From contig JANQLH010000314.1 in the NCBI GenBank assembly GCA_028280735.1, forward strand, positions 1 through 32,934: a DNA stretch of 32,934 bases. The letters run 5' to 3'. Made by a program: the position numbers and the translations under genes. Under the pieces are notes generated by a model. That model was not told the origin of the DNA and did not search any database. It saw only the letters and a program-made list of their open reading frames with translations. Below are positions 23,267-32,934 of this stretch, piece by piece. This DNA comes from SAR324 cluster bacterium. Its GTDB lineage: Bacteria; SAR324; XYD2-FULL-50-16. Each line of letters starts with the position of its first letter. Position 1 is the first letter of the stretch.

Positions 23267-26200
23267 TTACTGCTGCATGCCGTTCAGAACAAAAGGTCCC
23301 CAATAAAACGGATCATGAAAATCCCCCGTTTGCTTTTGTTTGACAACAAATTCCAGTTTCGCCTGTCTCAGGGCTTCGATTTTAGGATATCCCTGCTTCA
23401 AATATTCATAGAAATTAATCATAAGCTCACTGGTAGAATCATCCGCCACAGTCCAGAGGGAAACCACAACAGATGCCGATCCTGCATAAAGAAATGACCG
23501 GGTTAATCCAACCATCCCTTCTCCGCTGACTATTTTACCAAGCCCTGTTTCACACGCCGATAAGGTTACCATATCCGCTTTAAGCCGCATATCCCAGATC
23601 TCGGACGATGTTAAAAAACCATCCTCTTTCTGATCCCTTGCCAGGTTCAAAACCACCCCAGAGAATTCCGGATTATCCTCATCCAGAATTCCATGAGTAG
23701 CGAAATGGATATACTTGTAACTCTCCGACAGTTCCTTAGCCTTTTCCTCCAATGCACCTTGCTGATAGAATACACGGTTGCTATCTGAAAATAATGAAGA
23801 GATCTTGTTGACTTCAGTCGCGGTAGCATAAAGCCGCGAGAGTTCATAAAATCCTTTTTGCTTGAACACCGGATCAGCTTTGACGTTTTCATCTGCATTT
23901 ACCAGGGAAAATTCAGGATCTCCAAATCCCAAAAAGATCTTGGAATCATCCGGTTTATCAACACGCTGTCCGAGGTTATCCATAGCTGCCCCCAAAACAG
24001 AGGCTGACGGTGCGTAATAGACCGAATAGTCTTCTATCAAATACCGTTGATTGGCTGCCTGGTATCCCTCGCTACCGATGTCTATTTTGGTTATCAAGGT
24101 TTCAAAAGGCAGGTAGTGGAGAGCTCCGTCCGACAGTATCAGGATCGATTTGATTTCTGGCTCGATATCAAATGGATTGATCAGTGTTTCGTAAAGCTTC
24201 AACCCGATAGCCAGGTGCAATCTACGATTGTCCACTTCGGTATCCTCCTCGTCGTCATAGAATGAGAGCGGATCTTTCAAGGTAATACGATACTTTTCGA
24301 TGAGCTTTTTCAAATCTGCTTTGGCCGGCAGCTTGACCATTTTTAACTGCCTTTTGGAGATGTACCAACCATAGGATGCTTCACTGCCTGAAAAATAAGA
24401 AATCACAGCACTGGAGCGATCAATGATTTTAGCCCTGAGCAGGTTTAAATCGTAGATTTTGGGGTATTTTACATTGGCATAATTGGGATATTTCTCTTCC
24501 AACTCTTTTTTTAAGTTGTTGAAGGCCAGCTGTAGTTCCGTTTTTTTAAGGTTGAGCTGGTTAATCTTCTTTTTGTCTTTCTCTTTTTCCTGCTTGTTGA
24601 TCTCCTCGAATAAGGTTTCATTAACAGTCACCAGCTGGGATTTCACAAGGTTTTCCCGGTCTCGGTACGATTTGGGAAGGGAAATGTTGGAAAAGGCAAT
24701 TTGTTCCTGGAATTTATCGAGAAAAGATCGGGCCTTGGATTGTTCGGCTATGGGAAAAGCGTTTGCAAAGTATCTCTCGCTGCCTTCCATAGTGCCGATA
24801 TCATATTGAATTTTGATCAGTTGCTCAAACACATCGATGTTTTCTGCAACCAGCAGCTCTTGAGACTGGCCTCCCTTCAGTTGATGACGGATAACCTCCA
24901 GCAAGTCTATCGATTTGGAAAGACTGTCTGCGGCAGCTTTCAGGTAAAACCCACGTCTGGAGTAATCCTTGGCGGCCAGATCCCTTAACCAGAATCCCTT
25001 GTTTAACAAGAGGTTTTTAACCAGGTTGGGTGAGGTAATTGTATCAAGATCCGGATTGGGGAACTGCCGGTTGTCACCTCTCATATCCTCCGAGAGCAGC
25101 ATCAGGGCATCCTGGATGATATCCACTGCGACTTCCAGATTATCCTGTTCCTTTTCGATAAAGGCTATGTTGTTCAGGGTTTGTGCCTGATCAATATTCA
25201 ATCCCAGTGACTTCTGCAGATCGTAGGATTTTCCCAGGGAAGCTTTCGCGTCTTCCAGTCTGCCCAACTGGAAAAACGCGATCCCTTCATTGGAATAGGT
25301 TCTGGATATATCTCTTTTTAAGTCATATTTTTCGGCAATGTCACGACTTTTTGTCAGGTATTCAATGGCTTTGTCGTAATTCTTTAACGACATATAGCTG
25401 GTGGCGATATTGTTCATCGTCAGCGCCAGTTCAGCTTCAAACCCCAAATCACTTTGAATTTGACCTGCTTTTAAATAGGAGTTCAACGCCTGTTCATATT
25501 TACCTGTTTGCTGGTACAACGCCCCCAGGTTATTTACGACGGTAGCGGTAAACAATTCATTATTAAGTGTCTGGTTATATTCGAGTGCCTTGTTAAAATT
25601 CACTTCGGCGGAGTTGAAATCATCCATCCTGAGGAAAATGGAAGCTTTGATATTAGTGGCTTCCATCAACTGGGCTGTATTGTTCTGCCGCTTAAAGATG
25701 TCAATTGCCTGATCTGTAGCCTTTAAAGCTTCTTTGTATTCTGTCAGGTCTGCGTTCAGACTGGCCAATCCCAAAAGGATTTCTCCCATGCTGTCTTCAT
25801 TTTGTGGATCAGACTTTAAGCGGTTAAGGATCTTCCCGGCGGTATTATAATCAGCTCCGACAATATTAACGGAAGCCAGGGCCAACTGGGATTGAAGAAT
25901 TGACTGCCGTTCACCCGCGTTTAAGAAAAATGTAATCGACCTCTCCAGATCGATCCGCGCCTGTTCCAACAGAAGTTTTTTGTAGTATGCGGTCCCTCTT
26001 CCGTAATAAACGGAACCAAGGAAAAACTGGTCCTTAATGCCCGAAGTAATTCTGGCGACATCATGATAGCTTTTAATGGCCTCATCCGTCTTTCCCAACT
26101 TCTGCGATACCTGGGCTCTGAAGTAAAGCAGCCTCGCCATGTTTTCACTGCCTTCATCTATAATGATATCAGCCAGATAAATGGAGTCTTTCGCATCGTT

Positions 26201-28735
26201 GATTTGGCCTGCTGCCAATTGAAACCGGGTTAGATTCAAAAAGGCCGATCCCAATCTTTCCGTTTCTGCGCTTTGCTCCAAATAGGATATTAGCTGCTGT
26301 TGAGCTGTGATAGCATCGTTTATTCTCTGATTAAAGAACAAAGACTGACTTAACAACGAATATGCCAGGGCCTGGTCTATAGTTTTAAGTTCTTCCTGTT
26401 CCAGTTTGTTAATACTTTCAAAGGCCTTAATGGCATTGGCGTAGTCTTTCAGGTTAAAATATGCCATTCCCAGGTTCATCCGGACCTTAGCTTGTTTCAT
26501 GTCCAGATTCAAGGTCAGATCCCGAGCTTCAACGGACTGGTTAAGTTTTAAAAGGATATCTGATTTTAGAACAAAATTCGCATGACGTTGTTCCGTTGAT
26601 GGTGAATTCAGGGCTTTGTCAATGATTTCCAAGGCAGTGTTGTACCGGGTTAATCCAAGAAGGTTTTTTGCCTGAATCCTTAAGAGAACAACCTGGTTAT
26701 CGATATCATCCTTCGGAAGCAAATCTGATATTGAATTGACCAATTGGTTGGATTTTTCGAATTGCTCGATATTGTGCAAGTTATCGGCACTCATCACCAG
26801 CTGGTTTAACTGGACCCTAAATCGTGATTTGGATTTCTGTTTCGCAGCCGTCTGGTAAGCCTTAAACGCGTTGTCTGTTTGATCCAACTGCAGATAAAGG
26901 TTTCCGATCTCAAGATTGGTGAAGATTAATTTCTCTTTCTCACCCGTTTGTTCCTGGGTGGTTCTCAATTCAAGCAAGCGAGCCAGTTTTTGGTCGATAT
27001 CCCCGGATTCCAACTTGTTCAGTCGCGCTAAAATACGAGATTCAAGGTTGATATTCCGATGCCTTCTGGCGGCAGCAAGTGCTTCTTTGTAAGCTGCAAT
27101 AGCTTCATTTCGCCGGTTTTCCTTTTCATGCAACCGGCCTACCTCCCATAGCGTTTCCTCCAAAAACTCACTATCCGCTTCCTCATATTGAGTTTTTAAA
27201 AGATCATAAGCCGTTAATTGAGCCTTGGAATCAAGTTTTGCTTTGGCTACCAACAGCATTTTCCGGGCAATGCTGATTTTACGATCCTTCCTTTTTTCAA
27301 AAGAGTCCGGGGCATGGTTGTAAGCTTGCTGATAAAGCTGAAAGGCTTTTTCAAACTCGCCGGTCTTTTCCTTAACTTCAGCTCCCCAGATGTACGCCTG
27401 GTACAAAAACTTCTTATTGGTAATACCCGAATTTATATATCGCTCAAATAAAGCATAAGCATTCTGATATTGAGCTCGATTTGTGTAGTATTCTTCCAGT
27501 TCCTGAAAGCCGTTAAATCTGTCGAGTTGAAGAATAAATGCTGATGAGGAAAACACCTTTTGTATCAGCAATGCAATATACTCCTCATCCAATGAAAGAC
27601 GCTGGGCAACGCGAATCATGTTTTCCAAAAGAACCGGACCTTCAGGAGACAGCATAATGAATTCCTGTTTCAGGAGTTCTTTATGATAAACATATGCGTT
27701 ATTCCAATCCTCATTAATGATAGTGAGGTTTGCCAATCTGGACAGTGCCTTGCTTTTGTCTTGGTAGTCTTTGTGCCGGTAAATACTGGTAAGAACACTC
27801 TGCTCTTCAAGCAATTGCCCGTTTGCTTTGAAATAATTGTACAATCTGGTGAGAATTCCCAAGTCCGGACTTTGATTCCGCTTCTCCATAGCCTGATAAT
27901 ATCCCCAATAAACATCATTGGCTTCGTTCAGGTTGTCTATGGAAGATGCATATCTTAAGTACAACTGGCTCAAATCCCGCCATTGTTGATTGGCGACATA
28001 GATTTCCGCTAACAGGTCCACTGTTTTACGCGTCTCCGGATGTCTGGTCCTTATTCCGAAGTCGATCCATTTGTTCAGCACCCTGGTTTTCTCTTCTTCC
28101 GCATCGAACGAATTTGCCAGGGTATACCAGGAAGCGTAATAGTTATGGGTTTGTCCGCTTTTGGATCTCTCCGCATAGTGAATCAGAATCTCAAAATTTT
28201 CAGCAGCCTGGGCGTAATCGATGGTGTAGCGTACCCCCAAGGCATACTTGGAAAAGTAGTTTTCAGCCTCCTTGTAATTGTGCATTCTGGCGAAAAACTT
28301 ACTGATATACTGCAACAGAATGTTACGCTCAGTGTTGTTGTTTTCGGGAGTCACTTTCAACACATCTAACAGCACTTCCACTGCAGCGGCATTGCCGTCG
28401 ATTTCAAAATAGAGGTTTGCCAGGTCGATAACATTGGCATAACGTTGTGAGTAAAACTCCGGAGCAGAGCCAAGCAGTTTGTGCAAGGTATTACGATGTT
28501 TTATCTTAAGGCTGGTAAACGAATTTCGATCCAATCGATTGACACTAGCCTTTAGCTCTTCCTGATTCGCCAGAATCAACCGGGCTATCAACTCTCTTCG
28601 ATTTTCATAATCGGAGGTTTTTTCAATCTGTTTAATCAGAGTATTCTGTCTGTCCGATACCTGTTCCGCTAAAGAGCCGGTTGCCGCTGTCTGGAAAAAG
28701 AGGATCAGAAAAATTGTTAATCGTATATTAAACAT
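23267..28735 (-). CDS. Giant exported TPR protein with C-terminal CHAT (caspase-like) protease domain
   Basis: The product has 1822 residues from the ATG at 28735, which has AAGGG 4 nt upstream and opens a signal peptide (MFNIRLTIFLILFFQTAATGSLA). The track start 15 codons earlier is a GTG overlapping the upstream stop. Residues about 80-1330 are helical repeats of TPR type, for example NLGALYQQTGKYEQALNSYL and NNIATSYMSLKNYDKAIEYL. A charged coiled coil (about 1355-1430) links to the CHAT domain (about 1435-1822). The His-Cys dyad is intact: His1681 in HFATHGIL and Cys1728 in LSACETGLG, followed by GEGMVGLTRSFLYAG and a final DPFYWGPFVLNG. CHAT proteins are related to caspases and separase. 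Export suggests action in the periplasm or outside the cell; the target is unknown. It is the last gene of the four-gene cluster. Confidence 0.93.
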   Translation of the reverse strand: MFNIRLTIFLILFFQTAATGSLAEQVSDRQNTLIKQIEKTSDYENRRELIARLILANQEELKASVNRLDRNSFTSLKIKHRNTLHKLLGSAPEFYSQRYANVIDLANLYFEIDGNAAAVEVLLDVLKVTPENNNTERNILLQYISKFFARMHNYKEAENYFSKYALGVRYTIDYAQAAENFEILIHYAERSKSGQTHNYYASWYTLANSFDAEEEKTRVLNKWIDFGIRTRHPETRKTVDLLAEIYVANQQWRDLSQLYLRYASSIDNLNEANDVYWGYYQAMEKRNQSPDLGILTRLYNYFKANGQLLEEQSVLTSIYRHKDYQDKSKALSRLANLTIINEDWNNAYVYHKELLKQEFIMLSPEGPVLLENMIRVAQRLSLDEEYIALLIQKVFSSSAFILQLDRFNGFQELEEYYTNRAQYQNAYALFERYINSGITNKKFLYQAYIWGAEVKEKTGEFEKAFQLYQQAYNHAPDSFEKRKDRKISIARKMLLVAKAKLDSKAQLTAYDLLKTQYEEADSEFLEETLWEVGRLHEKENRRNEAIAAYKEALAAARRHRNINLESRILARLNKLESGDIDQKLARLLELRTTQEQTGEKEKLIFTNLEIGNLYLQLDQTDNAFKAYQTAAKQKSKSRFRVQLNQLVMSADNLHNIEQFEKSNQLVNSISDLLPKDDIDNQVVLLRIQAKNLLGLTRYNTALEIIDKALNSPSTEQRHANFVLKSDILLKLNQSVEARDLTLNLDMKQAKVRMNLGMAYFNLKDYANAIKAFESINKLEQEELKTIDQALAYSLLSQSLFFNQRINDAITAQQQLISYLEQSAETERLGSAFLNLTRFQLAAGQINDAKDSIYLADIIIDEGSENMARLLYFRAQVSQKLGKTDEAIKSYHDVARITSGIKDQFFLGSVYYGRGTAYYKKLLLEQARIDLERSITFFLNAGERQSILQSQLALASVNIVGADYNTAGKILNRLKSDPQNEDSMGEILLGLASLNADLTEYKEALKATDQAIDIFKRQNNTAQLMEATNIKASIFLRMDDFNSAEVNFNKALEYNQTLNNELFTATVVNNLGALYQQTGKYEQALNSYLKAGQIQSDLGFEAELALTMNNIATSYMSLKNYDKAIEYLTKSRDIAEKYDLKRDISRTYSNEGIAFFQLGRLEDAKASLGKSYDLQKSLGLNIDQAQTLNNIAFIEKEQDNLEVAVDIIQDALMLLSEDMRGDNRQFPNPDLDTITSPNLVKNLLLNKGFWLRDLAAKDYSRRGFYLKAAADSLSKSIDLLEVIRHQLKGGQSQELLVAENIDVFEQLIKIQYDIGTMEGSERYFANAFPIAEQSKARSFLDKFQEQIAFSNISLPKSYRDRENLVKSQLVTVNETLFEEINKQEKEKDKKKINQLNLKKTELQLAFNNLKKELEEKYPNYANVKYPKIYDLNLLRAKIIDRSSAVISYFSGSEASYGWYISKRQLKMVKLPAKADLKKLIEKYRITLKDPLSFYDDEEDTEVDNRRLHLAIGLKLYETLINPFDIEPEIKSILILSDGALHYLPFETLITKIDIGSEGYQAANQRYLIEDYSVYYAPSASVLGAAMDNLGQRVDKPDDSKIFLGFGDPEFSLVNADENVKADPVFKQKGFYELSRLYATATEVNKISSLFSDSNRVFYQQGALEEKAKELSESYKYIHFATHGILDEDNPEFSGVVLNLARDQKEDGFLTSSEIWDMRLKADMVTLSACETGLGKIVSGEGMVGLTRSFLYAGSASVVVSLWTVADDSTSELMINFYEYLKQGYPKIEALRQAKLEFVVKQKQTGDFHDPFYWGPFVLNGMQQ

Positions 28736-28776: not shown

Positions 28777-30357
28777 TCACTTGCCGTTCAATGCTTCCAA
28801 AGCTTTAACTGCTGTGGGATCTCCCTGGCTGGCTGCCAATTGGTACCAGCGTCTGGCAGCGTTTAAATCCTTCTTTATGCCGTCCCGTCCCTGTTCATAA
28901 ATTATTCCAAGGTTCAGTTGGGCCAGTGTTATACCCTTTTCGGCGGCCTGCTTATACCAGCTGACAGCCTTGTTAATATTTCGTTCGAACCCAAGACCAT
29001 TCTCATACATCCACCCTAAATCATTTTGTGCGCGACCAAATCCCTGGCCCGCGTATTTTTCGATCCACTTTTTGGCCAGGGAATAATCCTGATCCACCCC
29101 TTCGCCACTTAAATAAGCAATTCCAACATTATATTGAGCAGCCGGATAAGCTTCGGCGGCTGCTTTTTGATAGAGTGAAAAAGCTTCTTTTTGATTTTGC
29201 GGAACTCCAACACCATTAAAATACATCCAGCCCAATGCATACTGGTTCAGCGGGTCATCGGTATAAGCCTGGGTCAGGATTTTTGGAAGAACACTATAAG
29301 CCATGTCAACTGCCCTGGCCTCATCCTGTTTTATACCTACACCGCGATATAAAAACTTGGCATAAAGATACGTCCCGAAAGGATCACCTCTTTCCATTGC
29401 CTGGCTGGCTTGATAAACAGCCTCTGCCAAATTGGGATCACCGTTCAGCCCCAGGTAGTTGATGTCCGCCAGAACTGCGTTAGCCAATCCAATCCCGTAG
29501 CCGGTCATCTCTTCCATCAAGGTTATCGTTTCGGCAGCTTTGGTTCGTTTATCACTCCAGAACCCGTCCCTGTATTTTTGCAACAGGACCAAATTCAAAT
29601 TCTTTTTCGCTTCGGGAAGGTAGGGGCTGTTGGTATACAAAGTGATATATTCTACATAACTCTCTGCCTCGTTTTTATTTAGATACTCCTCCCAAACCAA
29701 ATCTTCCTTGGTTTTTGCGTCTTCCTCCGATTGATTATCGGCGTATAGATCCGCAACCCAGCCAAATTCTTCTTTGAATTCATCGACCCTGACAGCGAAT
29801 TTTTGATCGAGGGGATTATATATCCTTATATCTTCAAGTGCCGCGGGAAGAAATTGTTCGCTGGTTTTATAGCTTACAAAAACATCAATAACGAAATTAC
29901 CCTGGTTGTCCGAGTATTTGGACGCATTGTATTTTCCTTTTTTCCACCGTGTAAAATCTTCAAAATACTTGGATTCGGGGATTCCGTCCGCGATTGCGAA
30001 TTGAAGCCTGCCGGTTGATTTTGCCGTAAAATAGGAAACATAATCGGAGTTACCACTTCCGCTGATCGCACGTTCCGGAATATTGTTCCCGATTCGATAC
30101 CACAAGATGTCTTCCTGTTTAACCCAACCCCTGTTGACTTTCACATCGCCATACAGCAGCAGCAAAATCTGGTCGCCTTTTCTTACATGCAGCCCCGCTT
30201 CCGTCCAGGGGACGCGATTACCCCCGACTTTCGTACGGCCATAGAGTATGATGTTATCGACATTTTTCGTCATCGGCAGCTGAAGCTGCTGCGTCGTACA
30301 GCCGGTCAACATGAATAAAAGGATTATTATAAAATTGATTTTGACTGTGACCTTCAT
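28777..30357 (-). CDS. Lipoprotein with LecA (PA-IL)-like domain and Sel1 repeats
   Basis: The product has 526 residues from the ATG at 30357. The track start 19 codons upstream delays the signal peptide. MKVTVKINFIIILLFMLTGC is a lipoprotein signal with lipobox LTGC and Cys20 as the acylation site, so it is anchored in the envelope. Residues about 30-165 look like a PA-IL/LecA galactose-lectin-type beta sandwich: WTEAGLHVRKGDQILLLLYGDV, LWYRIGN, a FTAKSTGRLQFAIADG strand and YSDNQGNFVIDVFV at the end. A helical linker leads to about five Sel1 repeats (about 324-520), for example YALGWMYFNGVGVPQNQKEA and AQYNVGIAYLSGEGV. It stands 41 bp before the CHAT gene and is probably its partner or scaffold. 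The lectin fold is inferred by eye, and sugar binding is unproven. Confidence 0.88.
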   Translation of the reverse strand: MKVTVKINFIIILLFMLTGCTTQQLQLPMTKNVDNIILYGRTKVGGNRVPWTEAGLHVRKGDQILLLLYGDVKVNRGWVKQEDILWYRIGNNIPERAISGSGNSDYVSYFTAKSTGRLQFAIADGIPESKYFEDFTRWKKGKYNASKYSDNQGNFVIDVFVSYKTSEQFLPAALEDIRIYNPLDQKFAVRVDEFKEEFGWVADLYADNQSEEDAKTKEDLVWEEYLNKNEAESYVEYITLYTNSPYLPEAKKNLNLVLLQKYRDGFWSDKRTKAAETITLMEEMTGYGIGLANAVLADINYLGLNGDPNLAEAVYQASQAMERGDPFGTYLYAKFLYRGVGIKQDEARAVDMAYSVLPKILTQAYTDDPLNQYALGWMYFNGVGVPQNQKEAFSLYQKAAAEAYPAAQYNVGIAYLSGEGVDQDYSLAKKWIEKYAGQGFGRAQNDLGWMYENGLGFERNINKAVSWYKQAAEKGITLAQLNLGIIYEQGRDGIKKDLNAARRWYQLAASQGDPTAVKALEALNGK

Positions 30358-30407: not shown

Positions 30408-30713
30408 TTACCAATCAACATCATGTTTGGTAGAAAGCGATACTCGTTTTTGGTTCTTTTGCGCCTCATCCAGTTCAAGGGACTTCATTAGATGTTTCGC
30501 TAAAACAGCCCAGCGAGAATCCGGACAGGTATTTAAAAAATCGTTGTAAACTTCAATACTTTTAGACCTCTTAATTGTAGCCCAGGTATTGTCGTCACAG
30601 GCAATTATCACCCGTGACTCGGTGGTTTCGGAATCGCCGATGGTTTGACCCGGCAGGGTGTTAGCCATAAAAAGGAATATAATTGACAGGAATACCGGAA
30701 TCTGAAACTTCAT
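30408..30713 (-). CDS. Small secreted protein with a W-x-I-x-x-S...CPDS repeat
   Basis: The product has 101 residues from the ATG at 30713, which has GAGGTGG 8 nt upstream; the track start is a GTG four codons earlier. A signal peptide (MKFQIPVFLSIIFLFMANTLPGQ) is followed by a short mature chain. Two cysteines (in IACDDN and NTCPDS) could form a disulfide. The stretch TWATIKRSKSIEVYNDFLNTCPDSRWAVLA matches, by eye, the short helical repeat (W-x-x-I-x-x-S ... FL-x-x-P-x-S-x-x-A) often found beside bacterial caspase-like and Sel1 domains. It lies 50 bp before the LecA-like lipoprotein gene and 51 bp after the large TPR/PEGA gene, so it belongs to the same operon. Confidence 0.75.
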   Translation of the reverse strand: MKFQIPVFLSIIFLFMANTLPGQTIGDSETTESRVIIACDDNTWATIKRSKSIEVYNDFLNTCPDSRWAVLAKHLMKSLELDEAQKNQKRVSLSTKHDVDW

Positions 30714-30764
30714 TGTCGTTTCCACCTCATGCTTTGATTTACCAGTTTTGTTCTCTATTTTTCG

Positions 30765-32934
30765 TTACCAACCAAATCGATGCATCTTTGTACCCGATGA
30801 TACTGCAGCCTTGGCTACTTCAGCCTGTGTTTGAGAAGAACCTGTTGTTACCTCAGCCGTTTCCTCAATCGCTTGCTCAATGGGAGTCAGGCTAAGGTTC
30901 TCATTGAGCAGGGTTTGAGCCGAGATCGTTAGGTTGGACTGATAATCTTCATATCCGTAGGATTCGATAAACAGTGAATATTCTCCCGGTTCGAGCTCGG
31001 CCCTGAATTGCGAAAGCTCAGCCTGTTGCTGCTGCACAAGATTGCCCTCTTTGAATAGATAGATATTGGAAAACCTGGGAATACCGGTCAATAAAACCTG
31101 ACCGTTCGACTGGATAACATCGGCGGTCATTACCGCTTTTGTCGTTTCTTTTAAATCCAGCTTCTGATTGATTCCCAATGCTTCCTCACAGCTGGAAATA
31201 CGCTGGGAAATTCCCGGATACCCGGGAACGATGTTGATAAGATCCTGAAATAACGGGTAGGCGCTGGTACAATCTTTGTTGTTAAAATAATCTACACCTT
31301 GGTTTTCATAAGTTTTGGCAAGTAATGCAACATCCGAAAGTTCCAACTGAACTGCTTCAGCCGTCTGTATTTCTGTCACGATTGAACGCTTTGTACTCGC
31401 AGGCAACGGGGCCAGCGTACCGGACATTAAAGCACCGGCCTCTTGCAACCTGGCCTGATCCTGCAGTAATTTAACCAACATTAGAATAGCTGCAATGTTT
31501 TGAGGGTCGGACTCTATCTGCTCATTAAGAAAAAACTCGGCCTTTTCAAACTCGTTATTGGCCATATAAAAATCGATCATTTTATCAGGGTCAGGGTTAC
31601 CCGCCTCATCGGCAACATCCGTTCCCGTTGGTTTGCTTGCGACAATCGCAGATGTGACTTCAGGGGACTCAACAGGAATAGACTCTTCGGAGCCTGCCGC
31701 GGATTCGGCAGCTGCAGCCAGTTCCTTCGCTTGACGTTCGGCGGCAGCGGCCTTTTCCTTTTCCAGGTTTGCCATCATCTTCTCTAATTCGATCTCCTTG
31801 ATCTTCTCCCTGCAAAAATCAATCTTGCCCTTTAACCCGGGATAATTCGGGTTAAAGGTCTCTAAAGATTCAAACGCCCTCAAGGCTTCAAAGTATTTAC
31901 CCTCGTCCAAAAAGGATTGCCCGATCACAGCAAACTGTTTTGCCAGGAATTCCGCCTCCTTCACATCCACCTGGCCGCTCGCCTGTCTGGATCTTTCGGT
32001 CAACTCCTGGTCCACCGCCACTCTTTTGGAAAAGGAGATATTAGCCAGGGAAGAATTCAGTACTTCCAAGGCACTGGTTTTATCTCCTGTCGCCAGATAA
32101 ACATTGGAAAGATTGATATAGGTGTCCACATCTTCAGGAGCCATACTCAGCTGGTCAGATAAGAAAACTATTGCCTTTTCATTTTGACCCCTGTCCACAT
32201 ACAAGGAAACGATCTTCTCCTGATCCGAAATCTCCAGGCGTTCAGGTTTATCCAGGCTAACATTTATATAATCCGGTTCTACGTTGGAATCCAGGGATTG
32301 GTACGTCAAACGGGGATTGGCGTTAAAAGTAAAATACTGGGCGAAAACCTGATCCACATCGATTTTTATAGCATCCTGTTCATCAATAAAATCAGATTTC
32401 TTCACCATCTCAGGTTGATCTTCAATTTTGTTAATGTAATCAGATACTTTACCAAATGTAGCTTGATCCGTGACCTGTTTTCTCCGTTCCTCTTTTTGGG
32501 TAACCCGGGGTCGGTCTTCAACCACAATAGCACCGATTGGTGATTGTACAAATTCCGTCTCGTCATCAACCAGGGCAGCAATTTCCGCATTTGAAAGAAT
32601 TTTGGCATTGGATTTCTTCGACAATTTCAACACGGCAAGCACAGCTTTCTTTTCGCCCATTACAAACACAGTCGGGCGCTGCGATTTGGATTTGTCATAG
32701 AGTTTTAGAGTCACGTCTTGATCAAACTCCACATCCGATTTGATACTGCCGTGTTTGGAGGAACTGTCTAAATACTGCTCATAGTCCTTGTCGTATATCA
32801 GAACGTAAATGTCCTCAAAATCCATCGCCAGGATGAGGCGTGAATTGAACTGCAGGTGATATTTTTGAGTATCCCCGCCCCCTAATAAAGGAAGTCGGAC
32901 ACCACGCCACCATTTAACCCTGTTGTTTTTAAAA
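30765..32934 (-). CDS. Large TPR and PEGA-domain protein, 5' end beyond the window
   Basis: The ORF track starts this gene at an internal ATG (32825). The frame stays open through the last base, reading coding-like residues such as WWRGVRLPLLGGGDTQKYHL, so the true start lies outside. The visible 722 residues contain a beta-rich N-terminal part, TPR units (LYVDRGQNEKAIVFLSDQL, NLSNVYLATGDKTSALEVL, DFYMANNEFEKAEFFL) and a Glu/Ala-rich coiled coil (EKEKAAAAERQAKELAAAAE). Near the C-terminus is a PEGA-like beta domain (VLLTGIPRFSNIYLF through LEPGEYSLFIESYGYEDY). Two related TPR modules both end in a cysteine (NPNYPGLKGKIDFC and VPGYPGISQRISSC). Location is unknown without the N-terminus, but its three downstream partners are exported. 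It is the first visible gene of the CHAT cluster. Confidence 0.85.
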   Translation of the reverse strand, partial: FKNNRVKWWRGVRLPLLGGGDTQKYHLQFNSRLILAMDFEDIYVLIYDKDYEQYLDSSSKHGSIKSDVEFDQDVTLKLYDKSKSQRPTVFVMGEKKAVLAVLKLSKKSNAKILSNAEIAALVDDETEFVQSPIGAIVVEDRPRVTQKEERRKQVTDQATFGKVSDYINKIEDQPEMVKKSDFIDEQDAIKIDVDQVFAQYFTFNANPRLTYQSLDSNVEPDYINVSLDKPERLEISDQEKIVSLYVDRGQNEKAIVFLSDQLSMAPEDVDTYINLSNVYLATGDKTSALEVLNSSLANISFSKRVAVDQELTERSRQASGQVDVKEAEFLAKQFAVIGQSFLDEGKYFEALRAFESLETFNPNYPGLKGKIDFCREKIKEIELEKMMANLEKEKAAAAERQAKELAAAAESAAGSEESIPVESPEVTSAIVASKPTGTDVADEAGNPDPDKMIDFYMANNEFEKAEFFLNEQIESDPQNIAAILMLVKLLQDQARLQEAGALMSGTLAPLPASTKRSIVTEIQTAEAVQLELSDVALLAKTYENQGVDYFNNKDCTSAYPLFQDLINIVPGYPGISQRISSCEEALGINQKLDLKETTKAVMTADVIQSNGQVLLTGIPRFSNIYLFKEGNLVQQQQAELSQFRAELEPGEYSLFIESYGYEDYQSNLTISAQTLLNENLSLTPIEQAIEETAEVTTGSSQTQAEVAKAAVSSGTKMHRFGW

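Follow-up and report, generated by a model that had tools for sequence, protein, structure and literature searches.

The 526-residue Sel1-repeat lipoprotein encoded on the minus strand of this 32,934-nucleotide stretch of a SAR324 cluster bacterium genome (contig JANQLH010000314.1; the window) carries an N-terminal domain that, with high confidence, is homologous to the PA-IL (LecA-type) lectins and has the PA-IL fold. Judged from its residues, this PA-IL-like domain, hereafter the window domain, is probably a divergent PA-IL homologue and not a galactose lectin. The relevant features, all on the minus strand, are:

28777 to 30357, minus strand: Sel1 lipoprotein of 526 residues, consisting of signal peptide, PA-IL-like domain, helical linker and Sel1 repeats (ORF and translation)
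30298 to 30357, minus strand: lipoprotein signal peptide MKVTVKINFIIILLFMLTGC with lipidation Cys20 (direct reading)
29872 to 30249, minus strand: PA-IL (LecA-type) beta-sandwich, residues 37–162 (AlphaFold2 strands, Foldseek, hhalign, PDB hmmsearch)
30109 to 30141, minus strand: shortened loop KVNRGWVKQED at the PA-IL galactose-loop position (alignments)
29986 to 29988, minus strand: Asp124, equivalent to LecA Asp100 and EclA Asp114, a calcium side-chain ligand position (alignments)
29911 to 29985, minus strand: enlarged calcium loop of 25 residues, Asp124 to Asp150 (model and alignment)
29905 to 29910, minus strand: Asp150-Asn151, equivalent to LecA Asn107-Asn108 and EclA Asp121-Asn122, calcium side-chain ligand positions (alignments)
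28780 to 29190, minus strand: Sel1 repeats, residues ~390–526 (Pfam PF08238)
23267 to 28735, minus strand: exported TPR-CHAT protein, the next gene after the Sel1 lipoprotein (Pfam PF12770, E=4.1e-63; signal peptide by eye)
23279 to 24205, minus strand: CHAT domain of the TPR-CHAT protein (Pfam PF12770)
30408 to 30725, minus strand: 105-residue protein upstream of the Sel1 lipoprotein, probably exported, of no family (ORF)
30765 to 32934, minus strand: upstream TPR protein with a weak PEGA match, its ORF running off the contig end (ORF, Pfam)

The lipoprotein gene begins at ATG 30357, preferred to an upstream TTG because the ATG yields a signal peptide, and stops at 28777; positions 29863–30270 of the minus strand correspond to residues 30–165. 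The preliminary description of a lipoprotein with Sel1 repeats holds on both counts, since the protein has the lipobox FMLTGC with Cys20 (direct reading) and C-terminal repeats matching Pfam PF08238 (E=3.5e-40). More helical repeats probably extend upstream of this match. The protein would be lipid-anchored and is probably an outer-membrane lipoprotein, as threonine at position +2, with no aspartate, points to outer-membrane sorting under the E. coli rule. AlgK-type Sel1 lipoproteins share the lipobox and the C-terminal Sel1 solenoid, to which the window protein adds the N-terminal PA-IL-like domain; its NCBIfam AlgK match falls far below the cut-off.

The link to PA-IL, drawn from sequence profiles, is transitive, running from the window domain to its family and from that family to PA-IL. 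First, hhalign joins the window domain to its own family at 98.6% probability. Second, a profile of this six-member family (the window domain plus five relatives, found in two further genera of its small phylum), searched with hmmsearch against 177,635 distinct PDB sequences, places PA-IL proteins at ranks 1, 2 and 4, with EclA-N first (E=0.0046) and PllA second (E=0.052). Third, hhalign of the family against six PA-IL sequences gives a probability of 96.9% and a score of 65.2, as compared with a maximum of 19.7 among 200 column shuffles and 11.4 for the reversed profile; with the window domain removed from the family the probability is still 96.5%. These comparisons uphold the homology to LecA first proposed from four motifs, GLHVRKGDQI, GDV, LWYRIGN and DNQGNF, which are all present in the same order and are colinear with the EclA-N strands GVALKAGEII, SGW, LQARLGN and DNAGEF. 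About half of the 16 PA-IL-invariant columns are identical in the window domain, as read from the alignment.

A profile search against PA-IL had been suggested as a check, and its outcome differs with the profile: Pfam PF07828 is silent, whereas the family profile finds PA-IL. Single-sequence searches of Pfam and the PDB with the window domain return no match or chance matches, and the signal of the domain alone against a PA-IL profile is indistinguishable from that of its own shuffles. PF07828 has no match above cut-off among the family members tested or in the whole genome, and scanning the domain's own genome and phylum with it gives chance matches to unrelated enzymes only; the Pfam and NCBIfam scans that were run would have missed the assignment. 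A two-row profile search of genome contigs returns a single record, that of G006, from a metagenome-assembled genome deposited as Deltaproteobacteria bacterium SI047_bin2; two of the five collected relatives lie in this record. The scanned viral contigs contain no relatives, the sets searched for other phyla yield nothing and held no positive control, and a plasmid tblastn gives a single weak match (E=0.2).

The predicted structure, obtained independently of PA-IL sequences, points to the same family. An AlphaFold2 model from a three-row alignment, with all rows from the window domain's family and none from PA-IL, has pLDDT 72.8 and pTM 0.73 and comprises eight sandwich strands and a C-terminal helical linker; this is the jelly-roll beta-sandwich that defines the PA-IL fold. 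The LecA-type fold put forward for structural comparison finds support in a Foldseek search of 350,542 PDB chains, where the best nine matches are all PA-IL (EclA-N, PllA and LecA), with E values of 6.7e-6 to 6e-4 and TM scores of 0.60–0.64 by target length; by query length the TM scores are lower (0.42–0.45), partly because the query has extra loops and helices. The tenth match is a GOLD domain, and a viral structure library gives weak, generic sandwich matches only. Modelled whole and from its single sequence, the protein reached only pLDDT 38.7, and that model was discarded. The weaker Foldseek matches, which include GOLD and TNF-like domains, would fit an unrelated beta-sandwich of one of these types whose likeness to PA-IL is convergent, but sequence profiles, which use no structure, choose the same PA-IL family with an alignment that is colinear from end to end. 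Because the sequence and structure searches agree, such convergence is largely refuted and is very improbable.

LecA binds the galactose O6 through His50, Gln53 and, via water, Pro51 (PMC10243309, PMC12684298). At the galactose-loop position the window domain has only 11 residues (KVNRGWVKQED), as compared with nearly 30 in EclA, and in the alignment counterparts of His50, Pro51 and Gln53 are absent, the loop being deleted. In EclA-N, the nearest solved relative, the galactose residues are not conserved and arrays gave no glycan ligand (PMC11875179). The LecA-like galactose recognition that the comparison with LecA had suggested is thus not borne out. The window domain resembles LecA and PllA in jelly-roll topology, strand motifs and calcium side-chain positions, but it lacks the His50/Pro51/Gln53 loop and the GW motif and is only 14–20% identical to them, and the protein as a whole is multidomain with a predicted membrane anchor.

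The calcium site has fared differently. EclA-N coordinates the calcium ion with two main-chain oxygens and with side chains from Asp114, Asp121 and Asn122 (PMC11875179). With ligand roles assigned from PMC11875179 and PMC10243309, D124, D150 and N151 of the window domain match the side-chain ligands in two aligners and in hhalign, so the metal side-chain ligands whose presence had been called for are there. The calcium loop spans 25 residues as compared with 6 in LecA and EclA (~19 longer) and is modelled at low confidence, with short helices. Binding of calcium by the window copy is plausible from these residues, and it does not appear to be a family-wide rule: a relative in genome G016 keeps D and DN, whereas two of the four G006 paralogues have E and DN and the other two have lost DN. 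Together with EclA-N, the window domain would be a second case of a calcium site outliving the galactose site. The common fold and the Asp/Asp-Asn calcium side chains are what a true galactose-binding lectin like LecA would share, but the lack of any counterpart to the three galactose residues, the replacement of a 6-residue calcium loop by one of 25 residues, and the occurrence of a single domain beside a lipid anchor where LecA is a soluble tetramer, leave little chance that the window domain is one.

EclA-N (Enterobacter cloacae, PDB 6YGQ) is the top match by both sequence profile and structure. Both domains keep the calcium side chains (D..D-N) and not the galactose residues, and each is fused to another domain. 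They differ in that the window domain has a shorter galactose loop and the 25-residue calcium loop, and EclA is a two-domain lectin without a lipid anchor, whereas the window protein is a lipoprotein with Sel1 repeats. The PA-IL lectins described in the cited literature come from Pseudomonas, Photorhabdus and Enterobacter and, apart from EclA with its two domains, are small and soluble; the window protein and its relatives bring the fold to an uncultured lineage and to proteins predicted to lie in the envelope, which extends a small lectin family.

The lipoprotein gene lies in a same-strand series of TPR protein, 105-residue protein, Sel1 lipoprotein and TPR-CHAT protein, and the gaps of about 40–50 bases make an operon likely. 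The preliminary description tied the Sel1 repeats to a CHAT protease; a CHAT gene does adjoin, but the CHAT domain belongs to the next gene and not to the same protein. The TPR-CHAT gene likely starts at ATG 28735, behind AAGGG. Its product is a predicted CHAT protease by domain and by sequence motif, with an intact dyad of His1696 (23693–23695) and Cys1743 (23552–23554), numbered from GTG 28780. A phmmer search of the PDB with the CHAT part gives no match. CHAT proteins resembling it occur widely across the phylum, with matches in 35 of 52 genomes at E<=1e-10. Like Csx29 of Craspase, the protein has TPR repeats followed by CHAT and the His/Cys dyad, but it carries a signal peptide, and no CRISPR genes are seen within the window. 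PADLOC reports no defence-system match except a generic TPR. CHAT proteins are usually discussed as cytoplasmic. Signal peptides are present in the window protein and in the close orthologues examined. The 105-residue protein has no Pfam match; it shares a W..Y..FL(2–3 residues)P.S..A motif with the linker regions of the Sel1 lipoproteins.

We lean, with much lower confidence than for homology and fold, towards an EclA-N-type PA-IL member that uses a calcium-stabilised jelly-roll to recognise an envelope ligand while the Sel1 part holds its operon partners. The domain would sit about 15–20 residues past the lipidated cysteine, near the outer membrane, where a jelly-roll that keeps the side chains for one Ca2+, without the galactose pocket, could use the rebuilt, enlarged calcium loop to recognise a ligand of the envelope or matrix that is not simple galactose. 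The C-terminal Sel1 solenoid would offer a protein-docking surface for same-operon partners, above all the exported TPR-CHAT protein. Tentatively, the domain may instead be a structural relic that has given up sugar binding and acts, close to the membrane, as a rigid and perhaps calcium-stabilised spacer or oligomerisation module of the Sel1 scaffold. Loss of the galactose loop, loss of calcium ligands in two of the four G006 paralogues and the lack of an identified glycan ligand for EclA-N (PMC11875179) all favour such a relic, but the window copy retains all three calcium side chains, and remodelling of a binding site would be located in the divergent, enlarged loop beside them. If the domain does recognise a ligand, whether a glycan or the cell wall as first suggested or something else, it may act in sensing upstream of CHAT and is a candidate for the input domain of exported CHAT proteins; a complete lectin-gated envelope sensor, passing a ligand signal from the anchored domain via the Sel1 solenoid to the caspase-like TPR-CHAT protein, is unlikely.

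The order of Sel1 lipoprotein and TPR-CHAT gene is kept in G006, where the lipoproteins are 31–34% identical to that of the window. In the stretches examined around the TPR-CHAT orthologues of three other genera (G004, G007 and G009; ~50% identity), no PA-IL-like lipoprotein adjoins the gene, so CHAT does not need this neighbour. The pairing is thus known from two genera and is not obligatory. One G006 locus (C98; L008 9903–19417, L009 1402–5291) has four PA-IL-like lipoproteins around one TPR-CHAT gene of 2145 residues, with Sel1-like repeats in three of the four; the family has expanded locally here, and calcium ligands have been lost to differing extents among the copies. In G004 (C31; L042 1020–12270), a gene divergent from that for TPR-CHAT encodes a protein that has a TPR segment in common with the window TPR protein, and TPR protein and TPR-CHAT may thus be the more conserved pair. 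In a second lineage (G016, G033 and G045; L005, L047 1471–1737, L048), the domain adjoins a conserved exported protein, and G033 and G045 carry only the C-terminal part of the PA-IL-like domain, as if decaying.
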